Shown: positions 20,895-33,072 of the stretch, piece after piece
How positions within the stretch are numbered: the stretch's first letter is position 1
How the letters are laid out: each line of letters starts with the position of its first letter
From: Algoriphagus sanaruensis
Lineage (GTDB): Bacteria > Bacteroidota > Bacteroidia > Cytophagales > Cyclobacteriaceae
Direction of reading: 5' to 3'
Length of the DNA: 64,000 nucleotides
Assembly (NCBI RefSeq): GCF_001593605.1
Contig: NZ_CP012836.1
Coordinates: 2,856,501 to 2,920,500, forward strand
Program-made: the position numbers and the translations under genes
Notes under the pieces: model-generated
Told to the model about the DNA's origin: nothing
Database searches by the model: none
What the model saw: only the letters and a program-made list of their open reading frames with translations

Positions 20895-21518
20895 TTAAAT
20901 TGATTTACTTGAAATAATATGGATGCCCTTTTGTTTCATCTCTTGGATGGCTAGTTCCCCATCGGTTGGAGATAAATTGACCGCCCTAGTCGCATCCTCG
21001 ATTAGATAGGTATCAAATCCTAAACTTTTGGCATCCAGAGCTGTGAACTTGACGCAATAATCCAGTGCTAATCCACAGATAAAGACTGAATCAATTTGGT
21101 TTTCTTGAAGATATGCAGCTAAGCCGGTATCACCTCTTCGGGCATTATCAAAAAAACCAGAATACGAATCAACCTTTGGATTTTTCCCTTTTTGAAAAAT
21201 CATCTCCCAAGATTTCGTCTCAAGTTCAGGATGAAAATCTGCCCCTTGACTTCCTTGGACACAATGTACCTGCCACAAAACTTGAGGTAATCCGGCCAAT
21301 TCAATCATTTCACCGGGATTTTTACCAGGATGTTGAATTGCAAAACTTCCATGGTCAGAAGGGTGAAAATCTTGGGTTGCGATTACATGCTGAAATTTTT
21401 CTTGAAGCTGATTGATAATCGGAACTATCAAATCTCCTTCGGATACCGCCAATGCTCCACCAGGTATAAAGTCATTTTGGACATCGACGATCAGCAATGC
21501 TTCATTAGCTTTCCTCAT
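20895..21518 (-). CDS. pncA: Nicotinamidase PncA
   Basis: A 207-residue isochorismatase-fold amidase that converts nicotinamide to nicotinate in NAD salvage. ALLIVDVQNDFIPGGALAV holds the catalytic Asp, ATQDFHPSDHGSF gives the metal-binding Asp/His pair, and VFICGLALDYCVKFTALDA contains the nucleophilic Cys. I chose the ATG at 21518, preceded by GAAGGTG, over an ATG at 21542. It overlaps pncB by 14 bases, which fits coupled synthesis of the two consecutive salvage enzymes. Confidence 0.93.
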   Translation of the reverse strand: MRKANEALLIVDVQNDFIPGGALAVSEGDLIVPIINQLQEKFQHVIATQDFHPSDHGSFAIQHPGKNPGEMIELAGLPQVLWQVHCVQGSQGADFHPELETKSWEMIFQKGKNPKVDSYSGFFDNARRGDTGLAAYLQENQIDSVFICGLALDYCVKFTALDAKSLGFDTYLIEDATRAVNLSPTDGELAIQEMKQKGIHIISSKSI

Positions 21519-22998
21519 GTTCACCTTCAAATTTTTTAGCATTTAAAACAAGATTCATCCGGAGATGATGGAGATTTTCTTCCAAGCCAACCGGGTATAA
21601 ATGTGGATTTACCAAGCGTTTATGGGTTTTATCTAAAGCTTCCAATTGCTTAGAAGCCCGATCTCTAATCTGCGTTAAAGACGGCCGATCATAGACTTTT
21701 TCTCCTTGCTTGAATATTGGCTTAAGCAAAATTTCTTCCTTATAAAAAGCAGGCATTAAACGCTTTCTTCTCGTGGGATCAATGGGATCAATAATCACGA
21801 CTCCTCGAGGATCAATTTCCTGATCTTCTAGATAAATCATATCCGCTACAGCTTTATCCTGACTGTAATATCGCTTGACATTATGGAGGCCAGGAATGTT
21901 GATTTTGAGAGACTGTTGGGAGACTTTGACTTTGGGTTCCCAATCACCATTTTCATTTTTTACAGCTGAGAGTTTGTATACCGCACCTAAGGCAGGTTGA
22001 TCAAAGGCTGTCACCAGTTTGGTCCCAACCCCCCACACATTGATGGCCGCATCTTGGGTTTTCAAGGACGAAATAATCTGTTCGTCCAGATCATTGGAAG
22101 CCACAATTTTTGCATCGGGAAACCCAGCTTCGTCAAGCATTTGCCTTGCTTGGGAGGAGAAATAAGCCAAATCCCCTGAGTCAATGCGAATTCCAATCAT
22201 CTCTTTTCCTTTGCTTCTCAGCATTTCTCCAACTTTAATGGCATTCTTTACGCCATGCAGTGTATCGTAGGTATCCACCAAAAACACACATTGGTCTGGA
22301 AATGCCTCTGCATAAGCCTTAAATGCCTCTAGTTCAGTATCGAACGACATGATCCAACTATGGGCATGCGTACCCGAAACAGGAATTCCAAACAGTTTGC
22401 CTGCCATGACATTGCTGGTAGAAGCGCATCCTCCAATATAGGCGGCTCGACTTGCTGCCAATGCACCGTCGATTCCTTGTGCTCTTCTCAAGCCAAATTC
22501 TAAGACAGGATCGCCCTGAGCAGCTAAATTAATTCGAGCTGCTTTGGTTGCAATCAAGGTTTGAAAGTTGAGAATATTCAGCAAGGGCGTCTCCAACAAT
22601 TGACATTGGATCAAGGGACCTTTGACACGAATTAATGGCGCATTGGGAAATACAACCGTCCCTTCCTCTACGGCATCAATATCGCAACTGAATTGAAGTT
22701 GACTCAAATAGGCTAGAAATGCCGGCTCAAATAACGGACTTCCGTCCTGACTTTTCATTTCTGCGAGATATTCCAAATCCGCAGATTCAAACTTGAAATT
22801 CCGACAAAAATCAATCACATAATCTAACCCCGCAGCAATAGTAAATCCACCCTCAAAAGGATGCTTTCGGAAAAAAAGATTGAAAACAGCTTCTTGTTCA
22901 CCCTTTCCTGACTTCCAGTAGGCATAAGCCATAGTCAATTGATAAAAATCAGTCAGCAATACAAGACTACTTTGATACAGGTCTTTGGTGATTTTCAT
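21505..22998 (-). CDS. pncB: Nicotinate phosphoribosyltransferase PncB
   Basis: A 497-residue enzyme that makes nicotinate mononucleotide from nicotinate and PRPP with ATP. Recognisable segments are LTDFYQLTMAYAYW near the N-terminus, EFGLRRAQGIDGALAASRAAYIGG, GTHAHSWIMSF with the phosphorylated His, and GIRIDSGDLAYFS. I chose the ATG at 22998; earlier in-frame codons add 22 implausible residues. It precedes pncA on the same strand, so the operon covers nicotinamide to NaMN. Confidence 0.94.
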   Translation of the reverse strand: MKITKDLYQSSLVLLTDFYQLTMAYAYWKSGKGEQEAVFNLFFRKHPFEGGFTIAAGLDYVIDFCRNFKFESADLEYLAEMKSQDGSPLFEPAFLAYLSQLQFSCDIDAVEEGTVVFPNAPLIRVKGPLIQCQLLETPLLNILNFQTLIATKAARINLAAQGDPVLEFGLRRAQGIDGALAASRAAYIGGCASTSNVMAGKLFGIPVSGTHAHSWIMSFDTELEAFKAYAEAFPDQCVFLVDTYDTLHGVKNAIKVGEMLRSKGKEMIGIRIDSGDLAYFSSQARQMLDEAGFPDAKIVASNDLDEQIISSLKTQDAAINVWGVGTKLVTAFDQPALGAVYKLSAVKNENGDWEPKVKVSQQSLKINIPGLHNVKRYYSQDKAVADMIYLEDQEIDPRGVVIIDPIDPTRRKRLMPAFYKEEILLKPIFKQGEKVYDRPSLTQIRDRASKQLEALDKTHKRLVNPHLYPVGLEENLHHLRMNLVLNAKKFEGEHEES

Positions 22999-23095
22999 AG
23001 GGTCGAATCTAATCAGTTTTAAAGGTAAGGCGATCTTATTGTTTAGCCAAAGGATCACAATCACTATACGGACTTAAAAAAAAATCACATCTTGA

Positions 23096-23125
23096 GATTA
23101 CATTTTACCTATCCGTTAAGACAAA
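23096..23125 (+). promoter_or_regulatory. Predicted ECF-sigma promoter upstream of the sigma gene
   Basis: GATTACATT-N15-GACAAA ends 14 bases before the sigma-factor ATG. It matches three other promoters in this region (24545, 25559, and 32231 on the minus strand) in both boxes and in the exact 15-base spacing. This suggests that the sigma factor drives its own gene. Confidence 0.65.
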
Positions 23126-23139
23126 GAATTGACTAGCCG

Positions 23140-23748
23140 ATGAAGCTAAGCCGGAAACTGACTGATTTAGAGGTTTTGGAAGAAATCCAATCAAAATCCA
23201 ACCCTCATATGGCGCTTAACCATTTGTATTCGCAGTATTATCAACCACTCGAATACTATATCCTTCAAAACTCCGGAAGTGAAGATGACGCGGCTGATAT
23301 TATTCAAGAAGTCATGTTGGTGTTTGTAAAAATGGTAAGAGAACAAAAATTTAGAGGAGAATCGTCCATCAAATCCTTCCTATATAGCATTTGCAGAAAT
23401 CTCTGGATAACGGAATTGCGAAAACGAAAAAGTACCGCAGCTCGAAACGAACGATACGAGGAAGACAAGGATCAATTAAGCTTGGATGTCAGTGAACAAA
23501 TCCAGCGGAATGAAAATCTGAAGTTTGTCATGGACCTATTTGAGCAACTCGGAGAGCGATGCAAACAAATTTTGACTCTCTTTTATTTCGAGGAATTACC
23601 CATGAAAGAAATCTGCGAACGATTGGAGTTTAGCTCGGAGCAGGTGCTTCGAAATAAAAAATACAAGTGCCTCTCGACACTAACCGAACAAGTCAAATCC
23701 TCTCCTTCATTAATCCAAAATCTCAAAAACGCCCTTCGCCATGAATAA
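23140..23748 (+). CDS. ECF-type RNA polymerase sigma factor
   Basis: A 202-residue sigma-70 family protein. Region 2 is at about residues 24-92, with DDAADIIQEVMLVFVKM and SFLYSICRNLWITELRKRK. Region 4 is at about 130-185, with LGERCKQILTLFYFEELPM and a helix-turn-helix through FSSEQVLRNKKYKCL. There is no region 3, as expected for ECF factors. The next gene overlaps it by 8 bases and encodes a membrane protein with an anti-sigma-like N-terminus. A shared promoter motif upstream suggests autoregulation. Confidence 0.9.
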   Translation: MKLSRKLTDLEVLEEIQSKSNPHMALNHLYSQYYQPLEYYILQNSGSEDDAADIIQEVMLVFVKMVREQKFRGESSIKSFLYSICRNLWITELRKRKSTAARNERYEEDKDQLSLDVSEQIQRNENLKFVMDLFEQLGERCKQILTLFYFEELPMKEICERLEFSSEQVLRNKKYKCLSTLTEQVKSSPSLIQNLKNALRHE

Positions 23749-24499
23749 GAATTACACCATAGAGGAGCTTGAGGCTTATTTGAACAAAGAATTAGACTCT
23801 GCAAAACAAGAACAATTGGAGGCAGAGCTATTGAGCAATCCTGAATTGCAAGAAGAACTTTTGGCATTGAAAGCAAGTCTAGAAGCGATCGATCTTGCAA
23901 ACCTGAAAAAGGTAATTTCTCAAGTACATAAAGAGCACTTGGATTCGAGAGAGGAAACTCCTCAAATCCAAATCAGCACACCACCTAGCTCTCTTATACC
24001 TTGGATATCTCGAATTGCCGCTTCATTGGTCTTTGTCCTGGTAGGTACTGCCTTAGTTTTAGTCATAAGTGCTAATCCTGACCGACTTATTTCTCAACAA
24101 ATAGATTATGTGATTCCCGTTCTTCGTTCTGCAGAATCCCAACAATCCGCCATTCAAAAAGCCTATTCATCCGGAGATTTTGAACAAGTCATCACACTAG
24201 CAGACTCTTTTCAAAACCAAGTTCCTGAGATTTCATTCTTAAAAGGGCTTTCGTACCTGCAAACCAATCAAGCACAACAAGCAGTTGATACCTTTTCTGG
24301 ACTTGTCTCGACAGACTTTGGCTCACCAGCTCAGTATTATTTAGTGGAGGCCTACCTTCAGTTGGGTAATTTTGAATCTGCCTACAAGGAAATGAAGACT
24401 ATCAGAAATGATGCAAATAATCCTTACCGTAAGAATTTCACCCAGAAAGATCTTTTGGATGTCAAAATCCTTTCCTGGAAAAAAGCAATGGGATTATGA
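23741..24499 (+). CDS. Putative anti-sigma factor with C-terminal TPR-like domain
   Basis: A 252-residue single-pass membrane protein. The N-terminal 60 residues (TIEELEAYLNKELDSAKQ, LLSNPELQEELLALKAS) look like the helical anti-sigma domain without zinc ligands. One transmembrane helix lies at about residues 88-108 (IAASLVFVLVGTALVLVIS). Beyond it, about 130-250 holds TPR-like helix pairs, predicted periplasmic. The layout, and its 8-base overlap with the ECF sigma gene, fits a sensor that holds the sigma factor until a periplasmic signal releases it. The sensing function is inferred. Confidence 0.7.
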   Translation: MNKNYTIEELEAYLNKELDSAKQEQLEAELLSNPELQEELLALKASLEAIDLANLKKVISQVHKEHLDSREETPQIQISTPPSSLIPWISRIAASLVFVLVGTALVLVISANPDRLISQQIDYVIPVLRSAESQQSAIQKAYSSGDFEQVITLADSFQNQVPEISFLKGLSYLQTNQAQQAVDTFSGLVSTDFGSPAQYYLVEAYLQLGNFESAYKEMKTIRNDANNPYRKNFTQKDLLDVKILSWKKAMGL

Positions 24500-24544
24500 T
24501 TTAGGATTGAATTTGGAAAAAGTTGAAAAAAAAATTCAATTCTA

Positions 24545-24574
24545 GGTTACAATTAAACCTTTGACTTGGACTAA
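24545..24574 (+). promoter_or_regulatory. Predicted ECF-sigma promoter upstream of the lipoprotein gene
   Basis: GGTTACAAT-N15-GACTAA ends 23 bases before the lipoprotein ATG. Both boxes and the spacing are identical to the element at 25559-25588. Confidence 0.7.
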
Positions 24575-24597
24575 TAGAAAACAAAACCAAATAAATC

Positions 24598-25341
24598 ATG
24601 AAAACCACACACAAAATTCTTTCAGCCACCTTTTTAATCGCCTCCTTGGGATTTTCATCTTGTACTGAGGATAACAATTTGGATGTGATTGGAAGTGGAG
24701 ATGTAAAAATCGGAATGGGCGTAAAACTTCGTAATTCAGGAAATATCGGAGCACGCACCTTAAACACCGGAGTGGATATCACTAGCGGATTTATCCAAAT
24801 CAAAAAACTAGAATTAGAAACCGCAGGAATAGATGAAAATGGAAATGAATTTGAGCGAGAATTGGAGCTTAAGTTCAAGGAAATCAAAAAGATCACTTTT
24901 GACGAGTTTGATGCTGGGGTCGACTTTTTTATCAATATACCAGCAGGAAATTACGAGGAAATTGAATTTGAGATCGACCTGATTGATAACCGTCAGCAAC
25001 CGAGTATTCAGCTTGATGGAACCTTCACCTACTCAGACGGAAGGTCCGTCCCATTGAAGCTCGAAGTTTACGGAAACGATGAGGATGATTACGATTTTGA
25101 AGTCGAATTGGAGTCCAGAAATGACGATGATCTATTCTTCTTGGATGGAGTCAACAATCCGCTAGCCTTGTTCCAAATTGATGCTGTGGCTTGGTTCTCA
25201 ACTATTTCAAGCACAGAATGGGAAAATGCCCAACTAACCGATGGAGTCCTACTTATCAACAAAAACACCAATAAATCCATTTACAATAAAGTCGAATACC
25301 GAATCAAATCTTCAAGTGATATCGAACTGAAGATGAATTAA
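24598..25341 (+). CDS. Hypothetical lipoprotein, possibly DUF4382-like
   Basis: A 247-residue protein with a lipoprotein signal (residues 1-20, lipobox GFSSC with Cys at 20 or so). The body is beta-rich and acidic: ITSGFIQIKKLELETAG, then FFINIPAGNYEEIEFEIDL. The 'IPAGxYxxIxxEIDL' pattern resembles DUF4382 lipoproteins, but I would not assign that family firmly. It has its own promoter with the shared ECF motif and its own terminator. It is probably periplasmic or outer-membrane anchored. Function unknown. Confidence 0.7.
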   Translation: MKTTHKILSATFLIASLGFSSCTEDNNLDVIGSGDVKIGMGVKLRNSGNIGARTLNTGVDITSGFIQIKKLELETAGIDENGNEFERELELKFKEIKKITFDEFDAGVDFFINIPAGNYEEIEFEIDLIDNRQQPSIQLDGTFTYSDGRSVPLKLEVYGNDEDDYDFEVELESRNDDDLFFLDGVNNPLALFQIDAVAWFSTISSTEWENAQLTDGVLLINKNTNKSIYNKVEYRIKSSSDIELKMN

Positions 25342-25362
25342 GTAAAGTTGATCACCCAACCG

Positions 25363-25392
25363 AGCCGATGTCTAGTAGACATCGGCTTTTTT
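25363..25392 (+). terminator. Intrinsic terminator after the lipoprotein gene
   Basis: A perfect 11-bp stem (25363-25373 with 25377-25387, loop AGT) is followed by six T residues, 21 bases after the stop codon. Confidence 0.88.
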
Positions 25393-25558
25393 GTTTCCAA
25401 TAAACTGGTTTCATCATGGAAAAGGCCTTGAAGAAAGCAGCTAAGAGGTAAAATCTTGGATTAGAATGAATAATAACAACTCTCTCGCCCTTCAATCGAA
25501 ACACAAACCTTAAAACCCAAATTTTTTCTATTATTTCTATAAATTTTTTTAAAGACCA

Positions 25559-25588
25559 GGTTACAATCTTTCAAGCTCTTTCGACTAA
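25559..25588 (+). promoter_or_regulatory. Predicted ECF-sigma promoter upstream of the DUF2490 operon
   Basis: GGTTACAAT-N15-GACTAA ends 24 bases before the DUF2490 gene ATG. Identical in both boxes and spacing to the element upstream of the lipoprotein. Confidence 0.7.
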
Positions 25589-25612
25589 ATGTCAGAACTC
25601 AATTTCTGACCC

Positions 25613-26422
25613 ATGTTTAGAGGCAAATCTTTCATCAGCTTTTCCATTGGAATAGCCCTGTTTTTTAGCCCGCCAGCTTTGGCTCAATCCCAAGTTCGGG
25701 TCTGGAACAGCTTCGCCATAAATGCACCTTTATCTAAAAATCTTTCTGCCAAAGTCGGGTATATGAAGTCCCTTCGATGGGAAGAAAACATTCCTCAGAC
25801 CAATTTTAATTGGTATATCCTGAAGGTGAACTATGAGTTAAGCAAGTCTTGGGACATGTCAATAGGCTCAGCTTGGATGAATATCCCAAGTGCAGATCGA
25901 ACCACCTTCAGATTGATGGCTGAAGGAACTCATAGCCAAAAAATCTCCAGAAAACTCAATCTTAAAAACAGCCTTCAAGCGGAAAGACATAATAAGCAAG
26001 AATCCAGATTTGATTACCGTCTGATTTATAGCAGCAGATTAGGATTTCGAAAAAGGCTTGATTTCTTGGGAGTTGCACCTTCTTTGACCTATTCCCTATT
26101 CTTCAATTTTGGTGGCACGCCTTTGAAGTATTTCAACGCCAATCAAGAGCAAATCGCCCTGAAACCAGCCAATGGCCTCCATCGGGGTCGGGCTACCGCC
26201 AACTTCAATTTTAAGATTTCCAATCCATTACGACTCTCCATTTTCTACACCAACCAGCATGAATTTAACCTGGTGTTTTCGGAGACCAACAAAATCAATG
26301 TTACCAATCCTATTTCTGGAAAAATTCAAACCCCATTCTCTAATCAACACATCGTCGGATTTTTACTCAGCTACCAGCTTCAAAGCTTGATGGATGAGCC
26401 TATCCTTCCACAAATTTTCTAA
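25613..26422 (+). CDS. DUF2490 family outer-membrane beta-barrel protein
   Basis: A 269-residue protein with a signal peptide (about residues 1-24, ending ALAQ). It has the repeating strand pattern of DUF2490: VRVWNSFAINAPLSKNLSAKVGYM, RKLNLKNSLQAERH, and FDYRLIYSSRLGFRKRLDF (each shortened). It ends in a hydrophobic strand rather than a soluble tail. The family is predicted to form small outer-membrane barrels of unknown function. It leads the P-loop NTPase and ABC half-transporter genes under the shared ECF-type promoter. Confidence 0.75.
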   Translation: MFRGKSFISFSIGIALFFSPPALAQSQVRVWNSFAINAPLSKNLSAKVGYMKSLRWEENIPQTNFNWYILKVNYELSKSWDMSIGSAWMNIPSADRTTFRLMAEGTHSQKISRKLNLKNSLQAERHNKQESRFDYRLIYSSRLGFRKRLDFLGVAPSLTYSLFFNFGGTPLKYFNANQEQIALKPANGLHRGRATANFNFKISNPLRLSIFYTNQHEFNLVFSETNKINVTNPISGKIQTPFSNQHIVGFLLSYQLQSLMDEPILPQIF

Positions 26423-26450
26423 CAAACCCATCCAAACCCTTTTAAAAACC

Positions 26451-27518
26451 ATGGAAAATCGAATCAAAAAAGGAATGTGCTGTGCCCACATTCAACCTGC
26501 TCAAATCATCCATCCACAAGCACTTCCGCTAGACTTTCAGTTTACGGCTGGTGATGTTGGAATTTTTGAGGTACTCGAATTGGGAAAACATACCCAAATT
26601 CAAAGTGCTGGTAGGAATTTAACCTTGGCTCCAGGAGACAAAATCATGGGAGTCTTTGGAGCGCGCTATGCTACCAATCAGTTTGAGGGATATGTGCCCG
26701 ATTCAATTCAAGAAGAATACCATATTCTTGGAGGCGGCGGAGTAATTGGAACCTTGGTTTCATCCCATTCAAAATATGAATCTGAAGGTCCTACTCGCTT
26801 AAAAATGGTTGGAATGGCTGCTGATGAATCTGGTACTATCATCAATACGATTCAGCAAAATCTGCCTAGAATCAGACCATTTACTGGAAAAGCGGCTCAA
26901 AAAACGAAGGTGATCTTGTCCTTAGGATCTTCGATGGATAGCGGTAAAACAACAACTGCAGCCTACCTATGCAATGGATTGGCTCGTGAAGGCAAAAAAG
27001 TAGCTTACATCAAATTAACAGGGACTGCCTATCCAAAAGATAAAAATCTAGCCTATGACTTAGGTGCAATTACTGCGATTGACTTTTCTAAATATGGCTA
27101 CCCTTCTACCTACTTAAGAAGTGAATTGGAGCTGATGAATCTTTATGAATCCTTGCTGGAGGATGTCCTTTCTTACGAACCAGAATATGTAGTCGTAGAA
27201 ATAGCCGATGGACTTTATCAGCGAGAAACAAAAATGCTTTTGAGAAGCGCTGTCTTTCTAAATACGGTTTATCAAGTAATCTTCTCAGCTGGCGATAGTC
27301 TTTCTGCCGCTCAAGGAGTCCAAACTCTAAACAGATGGGGAATCATGCCATCTGCTCTTTCTGGCTTATTTACTGCCAGCCCCTTATTGATTCGGGAAGT
27401 CAAAGAGTACTTGTATGAAAATCAAGAGCTCTTGTTTTTACCCATTTTAACTTTGGAGGACCTCGCCTTGGGAAAGTGGAAGAGCTTGGTCGATGGATTT
27501 TCCCTCATGCAAGCCTAA
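26451..27518 (+). CDS. Orphan P-loop NTPase, SIMIBI type (DUF1611/MobB-like)
   Basis: A 355-residue protein. The N-terminal ~150 residues have no recognised domain. The C-terminal half begins with Walker A LGSSMDSGKTTTAAYL and continues with KKVAYIKLTGTAYPKD and YVVVEIADGLYQRE, a Walker B-like strand. This layout resembles SIMIBI ATPases such as MobB, BioD or DUF1611, not an ABC ATPase: no LSGGQ signature is present. I chose the ATG at 26451, just after the DUF2490 stop. It sits 32 bases before a lone ABC membrane domain. Function unknown; nucleotide binding is the only safe call. Confidence 0.65.
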   Translation: MENRIKKGMCCAHIQPAQIIHPQALPLDFQFTAGDVGIFEVLELGKHTQIQSAGRNLTLAPGDKIMGVFGARYATNQFEGYVPDSIQEEYHILGGGGVIGTLVSSHSKYESEGPTRLKMVGMAADESGTIINTIQQNLPRIRPFTGKAAQKTKVILSLGSSMDSGKTTTAAYLCNGLAREGKKVAYIKLTGTAYPKDKNLAYDLGAITAIDFSKYGYPSTYLRSELELMNLYESLLEDVLSYEPEYVVVEIADGLYQRETKMLLRSAVFLNTVYQVIFSAGDSLSAAQGVQTLNRWGIMPSALSGLFTASPLLIREVKEYLYENQELLFLPILTLEDLALGKWKSLVDGFSLMQA

Positions 27519-27550
27519 GTCTATTGTCCAAGCAAATTCCGAATTGAACG

Positions 27551-28612
27551 ATGAGAAAGTTTTGGAAAAGTAATTCACTCCGGAAATATTGGAAAAGCCA
27601 ACCTATTCGGCTTTTGGGATATTGGGGACTCGGCTGGATTTCCAGCTTGAGTACCTTCTTTTTGAGTCTCTTGGTTGGGGCATATTTTGATCTACAGTTT
27701 CACAGTGGAACAGGTAAAAGCCTGATTTTAGAGAAGTTTGGACTCCAATTTTCCAACTTGTATCAATTATTTCTGGTAATGGCAGTTCTTCTTATTGGAA
27801 AGATTACTTTTCAATACCTCGAAAGAATTGCCACTAATCACATTGCAGATCAATTTGTAGCCAACCTCCATTTCCGATTGTTCAAAAAACAAATGAATTG
27901 GACGCCAGATTTTTTTTCAGAAAGGCAATTCAGCCGGTATTTATTGAAATTCTCAGGGGATTTAAGCCCCATTCGAAATCTCTTTGTGAATGGGATTCAT
28001 CGTGGTGCTCGGGACTTACTTTTCATCAGTACTGGAATTTGCCTCTTGCTTTGGATCTCTCCTTATTGGACGATTTGGGTATTGGGTACAGTCGCACTGT
28101 TTATCCCAATTTTCTATTGGATTGACAGCCGACAAATCCGAATTATTCCTGAAAAAAGAAATTTGAAAAATAACCTGTTCCAATTTGTGACCAATTCATT
28201 TCTAAATCATCGGGAAATTCATTCTCAATTAAAAATTCAAAAAACTGTTCGAAGATTTACTCAAAAAAATAAGGCGCTTCTTGCACTCAACCTCACCTAT
28301 CATCGCTGGGAATCTCTAAGGCATGCATTGGGAAATGGGATTTCACCCCTTCTTATTTTCTTTATTTTAGTTCTTATTTCAATTCATTGGAATCAGGAAA
28401 GTTCGGGTACCCTTTTAGCCTATTTTCTGGTACTAAACTCTCTAGGTGCTCCGCTTCGAAATCTGCTTAAATCCCCTGAAATCATTGAAAAAGGAATGAT
28501 TTCACTTCGGAAAATAGAACAAACGCTTAAAACTAAACCTAACCCAACTTTGAGCGAATCCAAATCCAAGCGGCAAGAACCAACCCTGTCAATACAAGCA
28601 GGGCTGCAATAA
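27551..28612 (+). CDS. ABC exporter transmembrane domain without ATPase domain, probably 3'-truncated
   Basis: A 353-residue protein that aligns by pattern to the type-1 exporter transmembrane domain. It has about six helices (e.g. WGLGWISSLSTFFLSLLVGAYF, FLVMAVLLIGKITFQYLE), a coupling loop near FTQKNKALLALNLTYHRWESLRH, and the usual pre-ATPase helix SPEIIEKGMISLRKIEQTL. In full exporters the ATPase follows immediately. Here the frame instead runs about 24 more codons, which lie antisense to the end of the CHAT gene. No Walker A, LSGGQ or Walker B is present. It is either a decayed exporter or one that borrows an ATPase. Cotranscribed with the orphan P-loop gene. Confidence 0.7.
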   Translation: MRKFWKSNSLRKYWKSQPIRLLGYWGLGWISSLSTFFLSLLVGAYFDLQFHSGTGKSLILEKFGLQFSNLYQLFLVMAVLLIGKITFQYLERIATNHIADQFVANLHFRLFKKQMNWTPDFFSERQFSRYLLKFSGDLSPIRNLFVNGIHRGARDLLFISTGICLLLWISPYWTIWVLGTVALFIPIFYWIDSRQIRIIPEKRNLKNNLFQFVTNSFLNHREIHSQLKIQKTVRRFTQKNKALLALNLTYHRWESLRHALGNGISPLLIFFILVLISIHWNQESSGTLLAYFLVLNSLGAPLRNLLKSPEIIEKGMISLRKIEQTLKTKPNPTLSESKSKRQEPTLSIQAGLQ

Positions 28613-31283
28613 TTCCAAACACCTCTCTTACCGAAACCTCATGATGAATAGGCTGTCCAATCAACCGGAAATTGCTCCAATAAAAAGGATGGTGAAACTG
28701 CACCATTTGCGGATCATTCAATAAGTCCAGTTTCGCTTTTCGAAGGGAATTTGCTGGAGAATCTCCCTCATCCAAATATTGATAAAATCTTCCAGCTAAA
28801 TAGGCCGACACGCGATCTTCACTAACCCATTGTGTCAATACCATTTGCTCGGCTCCTGCTATGGCAAAGCTCCTCGCTAAGCTTACAAAACCTTCACTGA
28901 GGCTTTGTTTTCCAGCACCCGTTTCGCATGCGCTCAGATATACAAGTTTGACTTGATTCAAATCCATGGATGAAATCTCAGGTACAAAAACTCTAAACTC
29001 TTCTTCACTTGGATGGAAGGCTACAAACGACTGATTGGGATCCGATGGAGCAGCGACCGCATGTGTTGCCAGATGAAGAATATCAGCCTCCCCAGCATTC
29101 TGAAGAAATTGATCGCGTGTGGCACTTTCACCGAAAAATGTTTCTTGATCAAAAGACTCAAGTTCAAGTTTTGATTCTTTTAGCTCTAAAAACCCACGAG
29201 AATTATCCTCTAAAACCTCTAAAAATGGAGCAAATCCCATTTTGTTTTCAGGGGCTCTTTCCCATTCAATCGGATCAATAAATCGAGCTGAAAACTGGTA
29301 GATAACCGAGGTATTGTCTAAAAGAAGGTGTTGATCTTCCAAAGAAAAAACTTCAAAAGGAACATCATTAAAGATTCCATGAGGGATAATGACAAGCTGC
29401 GCAATAGCTGAAAGACGATCTCGAAATCCTTCAAAAATCAAATTTGCAAATGGTTCGGACTGCTGAATTAGCTTGGAATCCGCAAAGCCTGGAGTTCGGA
29501 TATCCTGAGTCCATTGTTGAAGTTCCAAGAGCGGAAAATTCTCCAATTCAATCCTTTTCCACCGAAATTCCTCACTTTCTATCCAAAAAACATACAAGTA
29601 AGAATCAGAGATAAAAAGTGATAACGCAGCAGTTTGGCCGGATAATTTTGCTCTAAAATGCTCGAAATCGAAACGCTGTGCTTCGGGAAGTTCCCATTTT
29701 GGAAATGAACGGAATTTCTCCCGAAGTCTAGAAAGTCGAACTTGAAGATCAACCCGTTCTTTTTCCAAAACATCCAAAGACTCAGTTTCATCCAACTGCT
29801 TTTGGTAGTTTCTCGAAATAGAAAACAATAAATTTTGCTCCTCCTGAATCAATTCTTCAGGAAGCCCTGCTTTTCTTTTTTGAGCTTGAAGCCTATTTCC
29901 ATTGATTAACCCTTCCGCCTTACTTTCTTCGATCCAAACAAAGGCCTTTTTTATCAATTCATCTGAACCTTTAGCAATTGCAAAAGTGGTTAGATCATTG
30001 ATGGCTTTTTGATAGGAGCGAAAAGCCTGATCTCCCAGAAATACCCGAGCTTCATCATTTTCATAATTGGCAGAAATAAACCGTACCAGCGCAAAAGCGC
30101 TATCCCAAGTTTCCATCCCCAATTTGAAAAACCGCTCTTCACCGGTATTTGAATAGGCTTTCCAAGCGATTTCTGCCTTCTGAGCTAGAATATCATATAA
30201 AGACAGAACCGAGACTCCCAGCACAAAATCGGTGGGATTAGCACGAATATCAAGTTGTTCAAACTCAGGATGCAAAAAGGTTAAGCCCTGTTGAACTGAT
30301 TCCAAAGCCTTTGTCCACTGTTTTTCAGCTGCCCAAAAGTCGGCCCAAAGACCAAAATGAATTCCTAATTGGAAATTTTGTTTGGGAAATGTTCCTTTTG
30401 AAATCATTTCAGAGCCAAGGCTTAACGTTTCATGAAATTCATCAAAACGCTTAAGTTGTAAAAAGGCCTTTGCTTGGAGATTATTAAAGGAAAGTGATTG
30501 GTTGGCAAACTCCTTATCTATTTCGAACAAAACCGCTAAGGCTTCACTAGCCTTTCCTTGTTCGATGAAGGTGTTCGCTAGATTCATTCGGACTTGATTA
30601 AGATTTATTCCCAAGTCAAGTAATTCCCGATACATGGACTGAGCACTATCGTACTTTTCGAGTTTGTATAAGGCAGAAGCCATGTTGCTTCTAAAGCTAT
30701 ATCTCGCATAGGTCAGTGCTCCCCCCTCCTGCCCATTCAAAAAACTTTCGGCCTTAGAAAAATAAACGTATGCCCGGTTAAAATTCCCGGTCTCATAAAA
30801 ATAGACCCCCAAGGCATTGTACAATCGGTCCTTTTCTTCTTCTATCCCAAAATGATTTTGAATCCGCTCTGCAGCTTCCAAAAAATATAAAGAGCTATCC
30901 AATCGGTTTAACCCAAAATAGGCCTCACCTAAATACAGATGATGAAGAAAAACCGAAGAATCAGATAGCGAAAACGCACGATTCAGGTCAATCCCTTTTC
31001 GATAACTCGCTTGTGCAGCCTGAATCATTCCAAATGATAATTGTAAATTCCCCAATCTTTCTGAAGCTTCCACAACCTGGGGTACAAGCCAAGAATCAGG
31101 AGTTTCATTTAAGACTTCCTGATACAGCTCCATAGCTTTCAGCTCTTGTTCCTCGGTGGGATTTGGAATTAGATATAACCTATTTGCCTCATCCAATGCA
31201 GATTTTCCATTCTGAGAAAAATTCATCAGAACTATCGCAAAAACAAATACGAGAAGAAAAATCGAGGCTATAGGTTTAAACAT
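28539..31283 (-). CDS. TPR-CHAT domain protein, predicted periplasmic caspase-like protease
   Basis: A 914-residue protein. It has an N-terminal membrane anchor or signal (about 1-22) and many tetratricopeptide helix pairs (about 30-450, e.g. DSAQSMYRELLDLGINL). A CHAT domain follows at about 610-890 with the catalytic dyad DILHLATHA (His741) and LVYLSACETGAG (Cys786). A final transmembrane helix lies at about 889-911. The two hydrophobic ends place the CHAT domain outside the cytoplasm. CHAT proteins are clan CD peptidases, including Hcp-associated and Craspase-type enzymes. It is in a divergent operon with a lipoprotein, under the same ECF motif as the sigma region. Confidence 0.85.
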   Translation of the reverse strand: MFKPIASIFLLVFVFAIVLMNFSQNGKSALDEANRLYLIPNPTEEQELKAMELYQEVLNETPDSWLVPQVVEASERLGNLQLSFGMIQAAQASYRKGIDLNRAFSLSDSSVFLHHLYLGEAYFGLNRLDSSLYFLEAAERIQNHFGIEEEKDRLYNALGVYFYETGNFNRAYVYFSKAESFLNGQEGGALTYARYSFRSNMASALYKLEKYDSAQSMYRELLDLGINLNQVRMNLANTFIEQGKASEALAVLFEIDKEFANQSLSFNNLQAKAFLQLKRFDEFHETLSLGSEMISKGTFPKQNFQLGIHFGLWADFWAAEKQWTKALESVQQGLTFLHPEFEQLDIRANPTDFVLGVSVLSLYDILAQKAEIAWKAYSNTGEERFFKLGMETWDSAFALVRFISANYENDEARVFLGDQAFRSYQKAINDLTTFAIAKGSDELIKKAFVWIEESKAEGLINGNRLQAQKRKAGLPEELIQEEQNLLFSISRNYQKQLDETESLDVLEKERVDLQVRLSRLREKFRSFPKWELPEAQRFDFEHFRAKLSGQTAALSLFISDSYLYVFWIESEEFRWKRIELENFPLLELQQWTQDIRTPGFADSKLIQQSEPFANLIFEGFRDRLSAIAQLVIIPHGIFNDVPFEVFSLEDQHLLLDNTSVIYQFSARFIDPIEWERAPENKMGFAPFLEVLEDNSRGFLELKESKLELESFDQETFFGESATRDQFLQNAGEADILHLATHAVAAPSDPNQSFVAFHPSEEEFRVFVPEISSMDLNQVKLVYLSACETGAGKQSLSEGFVSLARSFAIAGAEQMVLTQWVSEDRVSAYLAGRFYQYLDEGDSPANSLRKAKLDLLNDPQMVQFHHPFYWSNFRLIGQPIHHEVSVREVFGIIAALLVLTGLVLAAWIWIRSKLG

Positions 31284-31312
31284 AGGATCGGCTCAGACCG
31301 ATCCCGTTAACG

Positions 31313-32188
31313 TTATTGAAGACTTGCCACAATTACAATATAAGGCGGTCTGGGTTTACGAGGAGGCCTGACAGTATTAGATATCCTAAAATTAGAATTT
31401 TTGTCGTTTGTGCTCTCATTAATCAGATTCCTTTTTTCTTCGATATCATCCAAGACTTCTTTGGGCACATCAGAAAGCTTAGCATAATAGAAAAAACGAA
31501 GAGGAATTTTATTTAATGCAAGGGCACTTTCGTCGTTGATTTTGTAATACATCTCAACATCGAGAATCGTCCCATTCACAGGAATCGTCCCAAAAGTACC
31601 ATTATCGATCGTTTCCTCCAGATCAATAACTCCCTTACTATCAATTTCAAAACCTAAATCTTCCAATAATTCTCCGGTAGGATTTTCGGCATCAAAATCA
31701 CAACTATTATCATCACCAGATCCCGCACCGGTGCCATCATCATCTGGGCATGGAAGTAGTAAATCAGGATTTCCGTTATAAACAGGAGATACAAAAAGCT
31801 GATTTTGATTGATGATAAAAACTCCGTCTAGATAATTGACTCCGCCGATAGTGAGGAACGTTTCGCAAACTTGAGTACTTCCAGTGGGTGTAAATGAAAT
31901 TTTATACTTCAGACCGGTCTCACTAGCATTTACATCTATCACACCTGTGTCAGTATTTAAAGCAAGTCCGTCAGGAGTCGAAGAATATTTACCTGTAGCA
32001 GAATTGAGTGGAGCTATTGAATAATTCTGTCCAGGACGAATAAATACCAAGGTATCTCCGTAATCAAGGTCATCACAGTTGATTTCTCCGTTTCTTCCAT
32101 CCGGATCTACGTCACCAGAACATGACCAAAATCCAGTCAAAGAAACCACTAATCCTAAGATCAAAAATTTGAAAAAAGAATGCTTCAT
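31313..32188 (-). CDS. Hypothetical lipoprotein upstream of the CHAT gene
   Basis: A 291-residue protein with a lipoprotein signal (lipobox FWSC, Cys near residue 23). It contains a cadherin/immunoglobulin-like stretch (SIAPLNSATGKYSSTPDGL, then DTGVIDVNASETGLKYKISF), an acidic Gly/Asp-rich loop (DDDGTGAGSGDDNSCDFD), and a basic Pro-rich C-terminus (RPPRKPRPPY). It lies 29 bases upstream of the CHAT gene and is probably cotranscribed. The promoter upstream carries the shared ECF motif. No family recognised. Confidence 0.7.
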   Translation of the reverse strand: MKHSFFKFLILGLVVSLTGFWSCSGDVDPDGRNGEINCDDLDYGDTLVFIRPGQNYSIAPLNSATGKYSSTPDGLALNTDTGVIDVNASETGLKYKISFTPTGSTQVCETFLTIGGVNYLDGVFIINQNQLFVSPVYNGNPDLLLPCPDDDGTGAGSGDDNSCDFDAENPTGELLEDLGFEIDSKGVIDLEETIDNGTFGTIPVNGTILDVEMYYKINDESALALNKIPLRFFYYAKLSDVPKEVLDDIEEKRNLINESTNDKNSNFRISNTVRPPRKPRPPYIVIVASLQ

Positions 32189-32201
32189 GATGCTTTTTAA
32201 A

Positions 32202-32231
32202 TACGTCGATTCAGATTCCGAAGATGTAACC
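32202..32231 (-). promoter_or_regulatory. Predicted ECF-sigma promoter of the lipoprotein-CHAT operon
   Basis: On the minus strand, GGTTACATC-N15-GACGTA ends 13 bases before the lipoprotein ATG. The -35 box differs from the others only at the last two positions, and the 15-base spacing is the same. This ties the CHAT operon to the sigma factor 9 kb away. Confidence 0.65.
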
Positions 32232-32244
32232 TGAAAATATGAAA

Positions 32245-33072
32245 TTATTTCACTTTTAAATTCAACACGATCCCTAACAACACCAAAGCCATGCCGAAAA
32301 ATGACAGCATTTGAAAAGTTTCTCCGAAAATAAAAAACCCGAAAATCAAGGCGTAAATAATACCCAAATAGCTGAGACTAGATATCTTGGCTACGTTTGC
32401 ATTTTGATACGCCAGAGTCATAAAATATTGAGCTGATTGGGTACAAATCCCTATCCATAGTAATAGTATCCAATCCCAACCTTCTGGCTGAACCCAAGTA
32501 AAAAAACTGACCACCCCTGCCACAGGAAGAGTAACTAAAGGAAAGTAGAAAATGACCACCAACGGATGCTCTGAGGTTCTGAGTTTTCGGATGATGTTAT
32601 ACGCCAATCCTGAAAATAATCCAGAAGAAATTCCTATTAGTGCAAACACCCAATCTACCCTAGTATCAAAGCCTTGGAGAACCAATACTCCTCCAAATGA
32701 AATGGCGAAATACAAAAACTGGATGGGCTTGACGCGTTCCTTTACAATAAAAATTCCCAAAACAGAAGTGAAAATCGGAGATAAATATTGCATAGTGACT
32801 GCACTCGCCAAGGGAATATGCTGCAAGGTGTAAAAGAAGGTAATCAAACTAATCGACCCGACAATTCCCCTTAAAATGAGCATCGGTTTATTATTTCCGA
32901 AGACATTTACACCCTGCTTCTTCAACACTAGATAGCTGAATATCAGAGAGAAGATTGATCGGAAAAGAATGATTTCGATTGCTGGGATGTGAGGAATAAA
33001 TTTCACAGACACATTCATCAAGGCGAAAAATATCCCCGCAAGGAGCATGGATTGAACGCTTGTGATTTTCAA
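32245..33072 (-). CDS. EamA/DMT family transporter
   Basis: A 275-residue membrane protein with ten predicted helices in two EamA repeats. Typical segments are LAGIFFALMNVSVKFIPHIPAIEIILFRSIFSL and LSYLGIIYALIFGFFIFGE (shortened), the latter a hallmark of the second repeat. DMT exporters move metabolites such as amino acids or nucleosides; the substrate cannot be read. The frame starts with TTG at 33072; the ATG at 33048 is a good alternative that would remove 8 residues. Confidence 0.82.
   Translation of the reverse strand: MKITSVQSMLLAGIFFALMNVSVKFIPHIPAIEIILFRSIFSLIFSYLVLKKQGVNVFGNNKPMLILRGIVGSISLITFFYTLQHIPLASAVTMQYLSPIFTSVLGIFIVKERVKPIQFLYFAISFGGVLVLQGFDTRVDWVFALIGISSGLFSGLAYNIIRKLRTSEHPLVVIFYFPLVTLPVAGVVSFFTWVQPEGWDWILLLWIGICTQSAQYFMTLAYQNANVAKISSLSYLGIIYALIFGFFIFGETFQMLSFFGMALVLLGIVLNLKVK

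Follow-up and report, generated by a model that had tools for sequence, protein, structure and literature searches.

A probable ECF sigma factor regulon and candidate TPR-CHAT protease switch in Algoriphagus sanaruensis

A 64,000-nucleotide stretch of the Algoriphagus sanaruensis genome (contig NZ_CP012836.1, positions 2,856,501 to 2,920,500; the whole stretch is referred to as the window) was analysed with focus on a gene cassette surrounding an extracytoplasmic function (ECF) sigma factor, its anti-sigma factor and a TPR-CHAT protein. Judged from sequence comparison, the cassette is very probably a compact, autoregulated ECF regulon that places a CHAT protease under one membrane-tethered anti-sigma factor, along with two lipoproteins and an outer-membrane barrel. 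One small ECF regulon had been proposed in a sequence-only reading of the window, and this proposal is strengthened by the recurrence of cassette and motif in many genera, the absence of the motif from operon-internal starts, its tracking of the sigma gene and its retention at members that have moved elsewhere. The best-supported reading of the cassette adds that the CHAT protein may be the protease switching the sigma factor on, a role which goes beyond the earlier reading and is an addition of the present analysis; regulon and CHAT-driven switch together, as one explanation, are given a probability of about 0.55.

Promoter motif in the window and its genome

Four two-box sequences are predicted to serve as ECF promoters:

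23096..23125, plus strand: predicted ECF promoter of the sigma and anti-sigma genes (GATTACATT-N15-GACAAA); 82 of the 88 sigma genes tested have such a site
24545..24574, plus strand: predicted ECF promoter of lipoprotein 1 (LP1), by motif match
25559..25588, plus strand: predicted ECF promoter of the DUF2490 operon, by motif match; kept at the unlinked operon of Algoriphagus kandeliae
32202..32231, minus strand: predicted ECF promoter of the operon of lipoprotein 2 (LP2) and CHAT; motif kept at two unlinked LP2-CHAT operons

The sites lie where the sequence-only reading had placed them, all with a 15-base spacing, and the distances of 14, 23, 24 and 13 bases to the start codons (at 23140, 24598, 25613 and 32188) are likewise as it had described. 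By chance 0.01 motif matches would be expected in the window, four matches appeared in 0 of 100 shuffles, and in the 3.88-Mb genome the motif matches exactly the four window sites while a reversed control pattern gave 0. The loose pattern of that reading is unique to the four sites in its own genome but unspecific across 196 genomes of the family, being present in 117 of them with the reversed control at similar rates. It was consequently dropped as cross-genome evidence and replaced by a refined pattern and position-aware tests. The wide occurrence of the loose pattern is also what could speak for a chance likeness of four intergenic sequences, an explanation already refuted by the numbers above together with the conservation of the motif in held-out genera, and of negligible probability.

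The refined motif obtained by comparison reads GGTTACA-WW-N14-CGAC-N-W-W (from a matrix of 75 sites, two of them duplicate records), and just two of the four sites in the window share its additional C. With 2 mismatches allowed it gave 40 matches in the own genome against 85 for the reversed control, and further targets sought by this relaxed search were rejected as the counts are at background level. When 20 of these 40 matches were scored with a matrix trained on the four window sites too, the window sites ranked at the top with 23.4–27.9 bits, followed at 20.5 bits by an intergenic site (G000:C1:3195520). With Algoriphagus sites excluded from training, the three window sites tested score 19.8–25.7, the 99.9% point of the null being 11.7.

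In 51 of the 82 sites counted (23096–23140 and its orthologues) the sigma start codon lies 13–15 bases past the end of the motif. With this distance the sigma transcripts would be almost leaderless, provided that transcription begins 6–8 bases after the -10 box.

Cassette and motif in other genomes

Sigma relatives were found at E 1e-15 in 168 of the 196 family genomes, and orthologues scoring at least 150 bits make up 33 loci, the window included, in 29 of them, the next matches reaching at most 127 bits. Besides the 32 of these loci outside the window, two lower-scoring ones (L096, L097), excluded from the counts, and two overlapping stretches (L098, L099) were retrieved. Over the 33 loci an anti-sigma open reading frame is present in 32, a CHAT protein of at least 600 amino acids in 30, LP2 in 30 and LP1 in 18, some contigs ending inside the cassette; a whole or partial DUF2490-NTPase-ABC operon is found at some of them. 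From a scan of named genomes the best 80 of 297 sigma relatives were kept, and among these sigma and anti-sigma occur together in 80/80 and CHAT in 70/80; for 8 of the 10 loci without CHAT at most 8 kb were available beyond the sigma gene. Among the hosts are Algoriphagus, Cyclobacterium, Fulvivirga, Spirosoma, Rudanella, Mucilaginibacter, many Chitinophagaceae and one Flavobacterium.

Conservation of the motif was tested on 89 loci (the 80 named ones, the window and 8 from the family set) with a matrix retrained without the tested genus and scored over fixed regions to avoid circularity; L117 and L119, two contigs of one metagenome bin, carry identical sites. At the 99.9% point of shuffled sequence the motif is present at 82/88 sigma starts, 50/67 LP2 starts and in 55/87 regions following the anti-sigma gene, while it is present at none of the 89 anti-sigma starts and none of the 72 CHAT starts, both being operon-internal controls. 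The counts are given at this point because the maximum of the shuffled null, 23.6, is an outlier far above 11.7; above that maximum they are 26/88 (sigma), 43/87 (post-anti-sigma) and 23/67 (LP2). The sequence-only reading had named two outcomes that would speak against it, a motif equally common in random sequence and its loss from orthologous loci; the motif is clearly above the shuffled null and retained with held-out genera, and both results favour that reading. Autoregulation, a criterion for an ECF pair, is indicated at the level of sequence by the high frequency of the motif at the sigma genes themselves.

The refined pattern was found in 21 of the 29 sigma-positive genomes (43 matches) compared with 24 of 167 sigma-negative ones (27 matches), a difference with a Fisher p of 5.8e-10, uncorrected for relatedness. 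One of the 24 is G193, of the same genus as Cognataquiflexum aquatile (G064), where nothing of the cassette is left between NAPRT and EamA (L109:12185-14866) beyond the sigma promoter and the opening 29 sigma codons. That strict matches occur in sigma-negative genomes at all, and that the pairing of motif and sigma rests on sequence, could point to another regulator of the same genes binding the motif. This is very unlikely when the motif tracks the sigma gene across genomes and stands at the sigma gene itself in nearly all loci, and when its two boxes have an ECF-type spacing and lie 13–24 bases before the start codons of the window. Such two-box spacing is usual for ECF promoters.

Members that have left the cassette keep the motif. 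The DUF2490-NTPase-ABC operon of Algoriphagus kandeliae, located on a different contig, has the motif 26 bases before its start. The presence of CHAT, by profile, was compared with that of sigma in five genomes. Two distant genomes (G196 and G197) have a sigma locus without CHAT and an LP2-CHAT operon on another contig; in G197 the motif (16.7 bits) is at LP2 itself, in G196 (23.3 bits) it is upstream of a lipoprotein-like gene preceding LP2 in the same direction. In G082 and G178, same-genus genomes without the sigma gene, the CHAT profile found nothing at E 1e-5. Together with the remnant in G193 this would fit a cassette that is gained and lost as a unit.

The motif also reaches other genes. 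In two Chitinophagaceae loci (L177, L178; Pfam on L178) a set encoding cytochrome c, an OB-fold (tRNA_anti-like) protein, YceI and DUF5777 follows the anti-sigma gene, and a matching operon in Cognataquiflexum (L101) is unlinked yet motif-bearing. In four Cyclobacterium genomes (L105–L108; Pfam on one) the motif is at a hybrid histidine kinase gene on contigs other than that of the sigma locus, and in three named loci (L145, Fulvivirga; L146; L147, Agaribacillus) at an operon with a DCC thiol-disulfide oxidoreductase (Pfam on L145). Several other matches outside the cassette (L100, L104, L113, L114) have no gene within reach.

Proteins of the cassette and the proposed switch

The features concerned in the control of the sigma factor are:

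23140..23748, plus strand: ECF sigma factor, 202 amino acids, regions 2 and 4 (Pfam PF04542, PF08281)
23741..24499, plus strand: anti-sigma factor with cytoplasmic N-terminal part, transmembrane helix (residues 92–110) and periplasmic TPR domain, from Pfam and transmembrane prediction, the sides being probable
24125..24127, plus strand: codon of anti-sigma Arg129, proposed residue of a putative cleavage; Arg in 91/91 rows
28539..31283, minus strand: TPR-CHAT protein, 914 amino acids, predicted periplasmic with C-terminal transmembrane anchor (PF12770, 163 bits; predicted local distance difference test score of the model 87.6)
29061..29063, minus strand: codon of CHAT His741 of the catalytic dyad, invariant 25/25
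28926..28928, minus strand: codon of CHAT Cys786 of the catalytic dyad, invariant 25/25

In the sigma factor PF04542 matches residues 29–98 and PF08281 residues 131–166, with no region 3 family among the matches. Its reading frame overlaps that of the anti-sigma factor by 8 bases, and the two genes are probably co-transcribed. The transmembrane helix of the anti-sigma factor is present in 30 of 32 orthologues. Alignment of 91 anti-sigma rows, which include duplicates (L086 = L176, L078 = L150), revealed Arg129 as the sole residue of the window protein invariant in all of them, followed by two alanines at the start of the transmembrane helix (90/91) and then by positions near 90%. The arginine lies 16–30 residues past the helix, and the residue after it is G in 50 rows, S in 29, D in 7, N in 3 and A in 2. 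A search of the anti-sigma alignment against a protein database gave 18 proteins only, 17 of them with R-S or R-G in the printed stretches. The same stalk R-S or R-G is seen in four related anti-sigma factors of other CHAT cassettes (L149, L153, L236, L237). These four are TPR anti-sigma/CHAT cassettes of a different subfamily, with an ECF gene recognised in three, and the architecture may represent a larger class.

In the TPR-CHAT protein a C-terminal transmembrane helix is found in 29/30 orthologues, with more K/R after the helix than before it in 28/30, and because of this anchor and its K/R-richer tail the body of the protein is predicted to be periplasmic. By fold the protein matches Csx29 best, and when a profile of the CHAT domain was run against the sequences of solved structures the only relative was DdvA (PDB 8rot, 8rw5), a transmembrane anti-sigma factor. 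A profile of the full-length protein was uninformative in the same search, the best 60 of its 188 matches (E 0.01) consisting of TPR proteins and proteins with other helical repeats. Beyond the Cys-bearing strand lie the invariant Trp819 and Asp823. Cleavage after arginine is known from separase, clostripain, gingipain R and paracaspase, and in RgpB a Trp of loop 5 covers the Arg pocket, as told in part of PMC4357240; that Trp819 and Asp823 correspond to Arg-pocket residues of such relatives is suggested by our own reading rather than by a computed superposition. A second CHAT domain is encoded in the own genome at G000:C1:1896892-1897716, within an open frame of 1780 residues.

In the proposed mechanism the anti-sigma factor would tether the ECF sigma factor at the inner membrane, as its domain order and one transmembrane helix suggest, until an envelope signal, probably relayed by LP2, activates the membrane-anchored periplasmic TPR-CHAT protease. 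The protease would cleave the periplasmic stalk of the anti-sigma factor after the invariant Arg129, and RseP-type and cytoplasmic proteases, as is established for other ECF systems, would finish it and free the sigma factor; an RseP homologue is present. On comparative grounds the free sigma factor would drive transcription from GGTTACA-N16-CGAC promoters, those of the sigma operon itself, of the lipoproteins and CHAT and of envelope outputs, and positive feedback on CHAT would follow. The step in which CHAT acts as site-1 protease, cutting after Arg129, is proposed tentatively and at somewhat less than even odds.

Two other accounts accept the regulon as described. In the first, CHAT is an output that together with LP2 acts on attackers or damaged envelope proteins by trimming or destroying them, another site-1 protease cutting the anti-sigma factor; CHAT indeed sits in the motif-bearing LP2 operon as outputs do, and the other motif-bearing genes encode envelope proteins (DUF2490, YceI, cytochrome c, DUF5777). 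However, CHAT is the most constant partner of sigma and anti-sigma (70/73) whereas partners such as DUF2490 and YceI differ from genus to genus, and both solved relatives, Csx29 (in parts of PMC10028731) and DdvA (in parts of PMC4374960), work in sigma/anti-sigma control, so that this account appears rather unlikely. Less probable still is a conformational release, in which LP2, or CHAT through its TPRs, would bind to the TPRs of the anti-sigma factor and CHAT would make no cut, leaving Arg129 as a structural stalk residue. TPR domains, common partner binders, are present in both CHAT and the anti-sigma factor, and Arg129 adjoins the TPR region, but the invariant dyad would be needless in a pure scaffold.

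Several observations weigh against the CHAT-driven switch or the regulon beneath it. The N-terminal hydrophobic segment of CHAT is above threshold in only 15/30 orthologues. Arg129 is at the start of the first TPR helix, where the residues following it are good helix caps, and may be structural, and P0023, a weak match among the 18 database homologues, has no such Arg in its printed stretch. The cut made by Csx29 in Csx30 falls between residues 427 and 429, where no single residue was found to be essential, so not all CHAT proteases prefer Arg (PMC10028731, in part). One locus (L088, in G098) has no linked CHAT, the best CHAT relative elsewhere in that genome having a lower score (270 bits) and adjoining another anti-sigma gene. 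The motif is missing at the 99.9% point from 17/67 LP2 and 32/87 post-anti-sigma regions, and the test of sigma presence used a pattern from the same loci and no correction for kinship of the genomes.

The remaining features are the lipoproteins and the DUF2490 operon:

24598..25341, plus strand: LP1, 247 amino acids, lipobox SSC, no Pfam match
31313..32188, minus strand: LP2, with lipobox, immunoglobulin-like domain, Asp-rich linker in many relatives and conserved C-terminal strand PRPPYxVIV
25613..26422, plus strand: DUF2490 protein (PF10677) with apparent signal peptide, probable outer-membrane barrel
26451..27518, plus strand: P-loop NTPase, weakly DUF1611-like, all Pfam matches below cut-off
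27551..28612, plus strand: ATP-binding cassette (ABC) transporter membrane domain without ATPase domain, 353 amino acids (PF00664 only)

LP1 was left unnamed, its likeness to DUF4382 being weak (probability 60.7 over 28 columns); in several Chitinophagaceae the gene after the anti-sigma gene encodes a DUF4382 lipoprotein. Among the LP2 proteins (L064–L094) the Asp-rich linker is flanked by Cys and holds at least 20 Asp in some relatives, and most carry the conserved C-terminal strand PRPPYLVIV; the gene upstream of LP2 in G196 encodes a lipoprotein-like protein of 411 amino acids rich in Asp and Asn. The linker and the latter gene suggest a link to divalent cations. Acidic residues directly after the lipobox Cys in several LP2 resemble the surface-export signal of Bacteroidetes lipoproteins described in part of PMC5080379, and from this analogy LP2 may be placed on the cell surface.

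The listed reading frame of the NTPase opens at 26394, but 26451 is a likelier start, matching a relative of 355 amino acids in L110. The ABC membrane protein has 345–368 amino acids in Algoriphagus and some relatives and 562–580 in Fulvivirga, Agaribacillus, a Cytophagales bin and a Spirosomataceae bin, with ABC_tran shown in one (L145). At its 3' end the gene shares 74 bases with the convergent CHAT gene.

Relation to known systems

A description of the cassette was not found in the open-licence literature searched. It works like DdvA/DdvS and Craspase/CASP-sigma, yet is a member of neither. In DdvS/DdvA of Myxococcus xanthus anti-sigma domain, transmembrane helix and TPR-CHAT form one polypeptide, whereas here the shared TPR-CHAT fold is in a separate protein and the genes are distinct (23741–24499 and 28539–31283). 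DdvA reportedly has an incomplete CHAT active site and a zinc-binding CHCC anti-sigma domain; in the window the dyad is complete and the anti-sigma factor has no Cys. Lipoproteins are added, and the motif-bearing genes are envelope genes while the output of DdvS/DdvA is a defence island, according to part of PMC12288465.

In the Type III-E Craspase/CASP-sigma system, as parts of PMC10028731 describe it, a TPR-CHAT protease is tied to the event that frees an ECF sigma factor of its inhibitor, and the locus itself contains sigma sites. The likeness lies in a TPR-CHAT protein with His-Cys dyad and in Csx29 as best fold match; Csx29, however, is RNA-activated via Cas7-11 and cuts Csx30, while the proteins here are predicted in membrane and periplasm. 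No Cas gene, Cas7-11 or gRAMP was found among the ten proteins scanned (21505–33072), and no PADLOC match among eight.

The ECF54 group has CHAT, subtilase and carboxypeptidase neighbours and a proposed proteolytic control, and is placed in part of PMC8999054 among the groups without anti-sigma, whereas a TPR anti-sigma factor is present at all 89 loci examined here. In the caspase neighbourhoods with TRADD-N/EACC2, caspase, ECF sigma and TPR genes occur together (PMC8195603, in part), but there a caspase domain and a DUF1822 TPR protein belong to conflict systems instead of a CHAT-anti-sigma envelope cassette. RpoE/RseA/DegS of Escherichia coli resembles the proposed order, in which RseP acts after a site-1 cut in the periplasm; DegS is a serine protease, while the site-1 protease proposed here would be a cysteine protease of clan CD that the cassette itself encodes and autoregulates.

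Many CHAT proteases have no known substrate, and the cassette offers a likely one, along with a residue at which it may be cut, a promoter to serve as reporter and a clearly delimited set of genes; its hosts include genera with cultured type strains, e.g. Algoriphagus and Spirosoma. If true, the reading would amount to a route of envelope signalling through ECF factors that is common in Bacteroidota, and would hint at the origin of the connection between Craspase and sigma. More tentative again than the cut at Arg129 is the wider view that membrane-anchored periplasmic TPR-CHAT proteins throughout Bacteroidota are autoregulated site-1 proteases dedicated to ECF anti-sigma factors, which they would cut behind a single invariant arginine of the stalk; DdvA, by fusion, and Craspase/CASP-sigma, by capture into CRISPR, would then derive from this one widespread caspase-sigma scheme.

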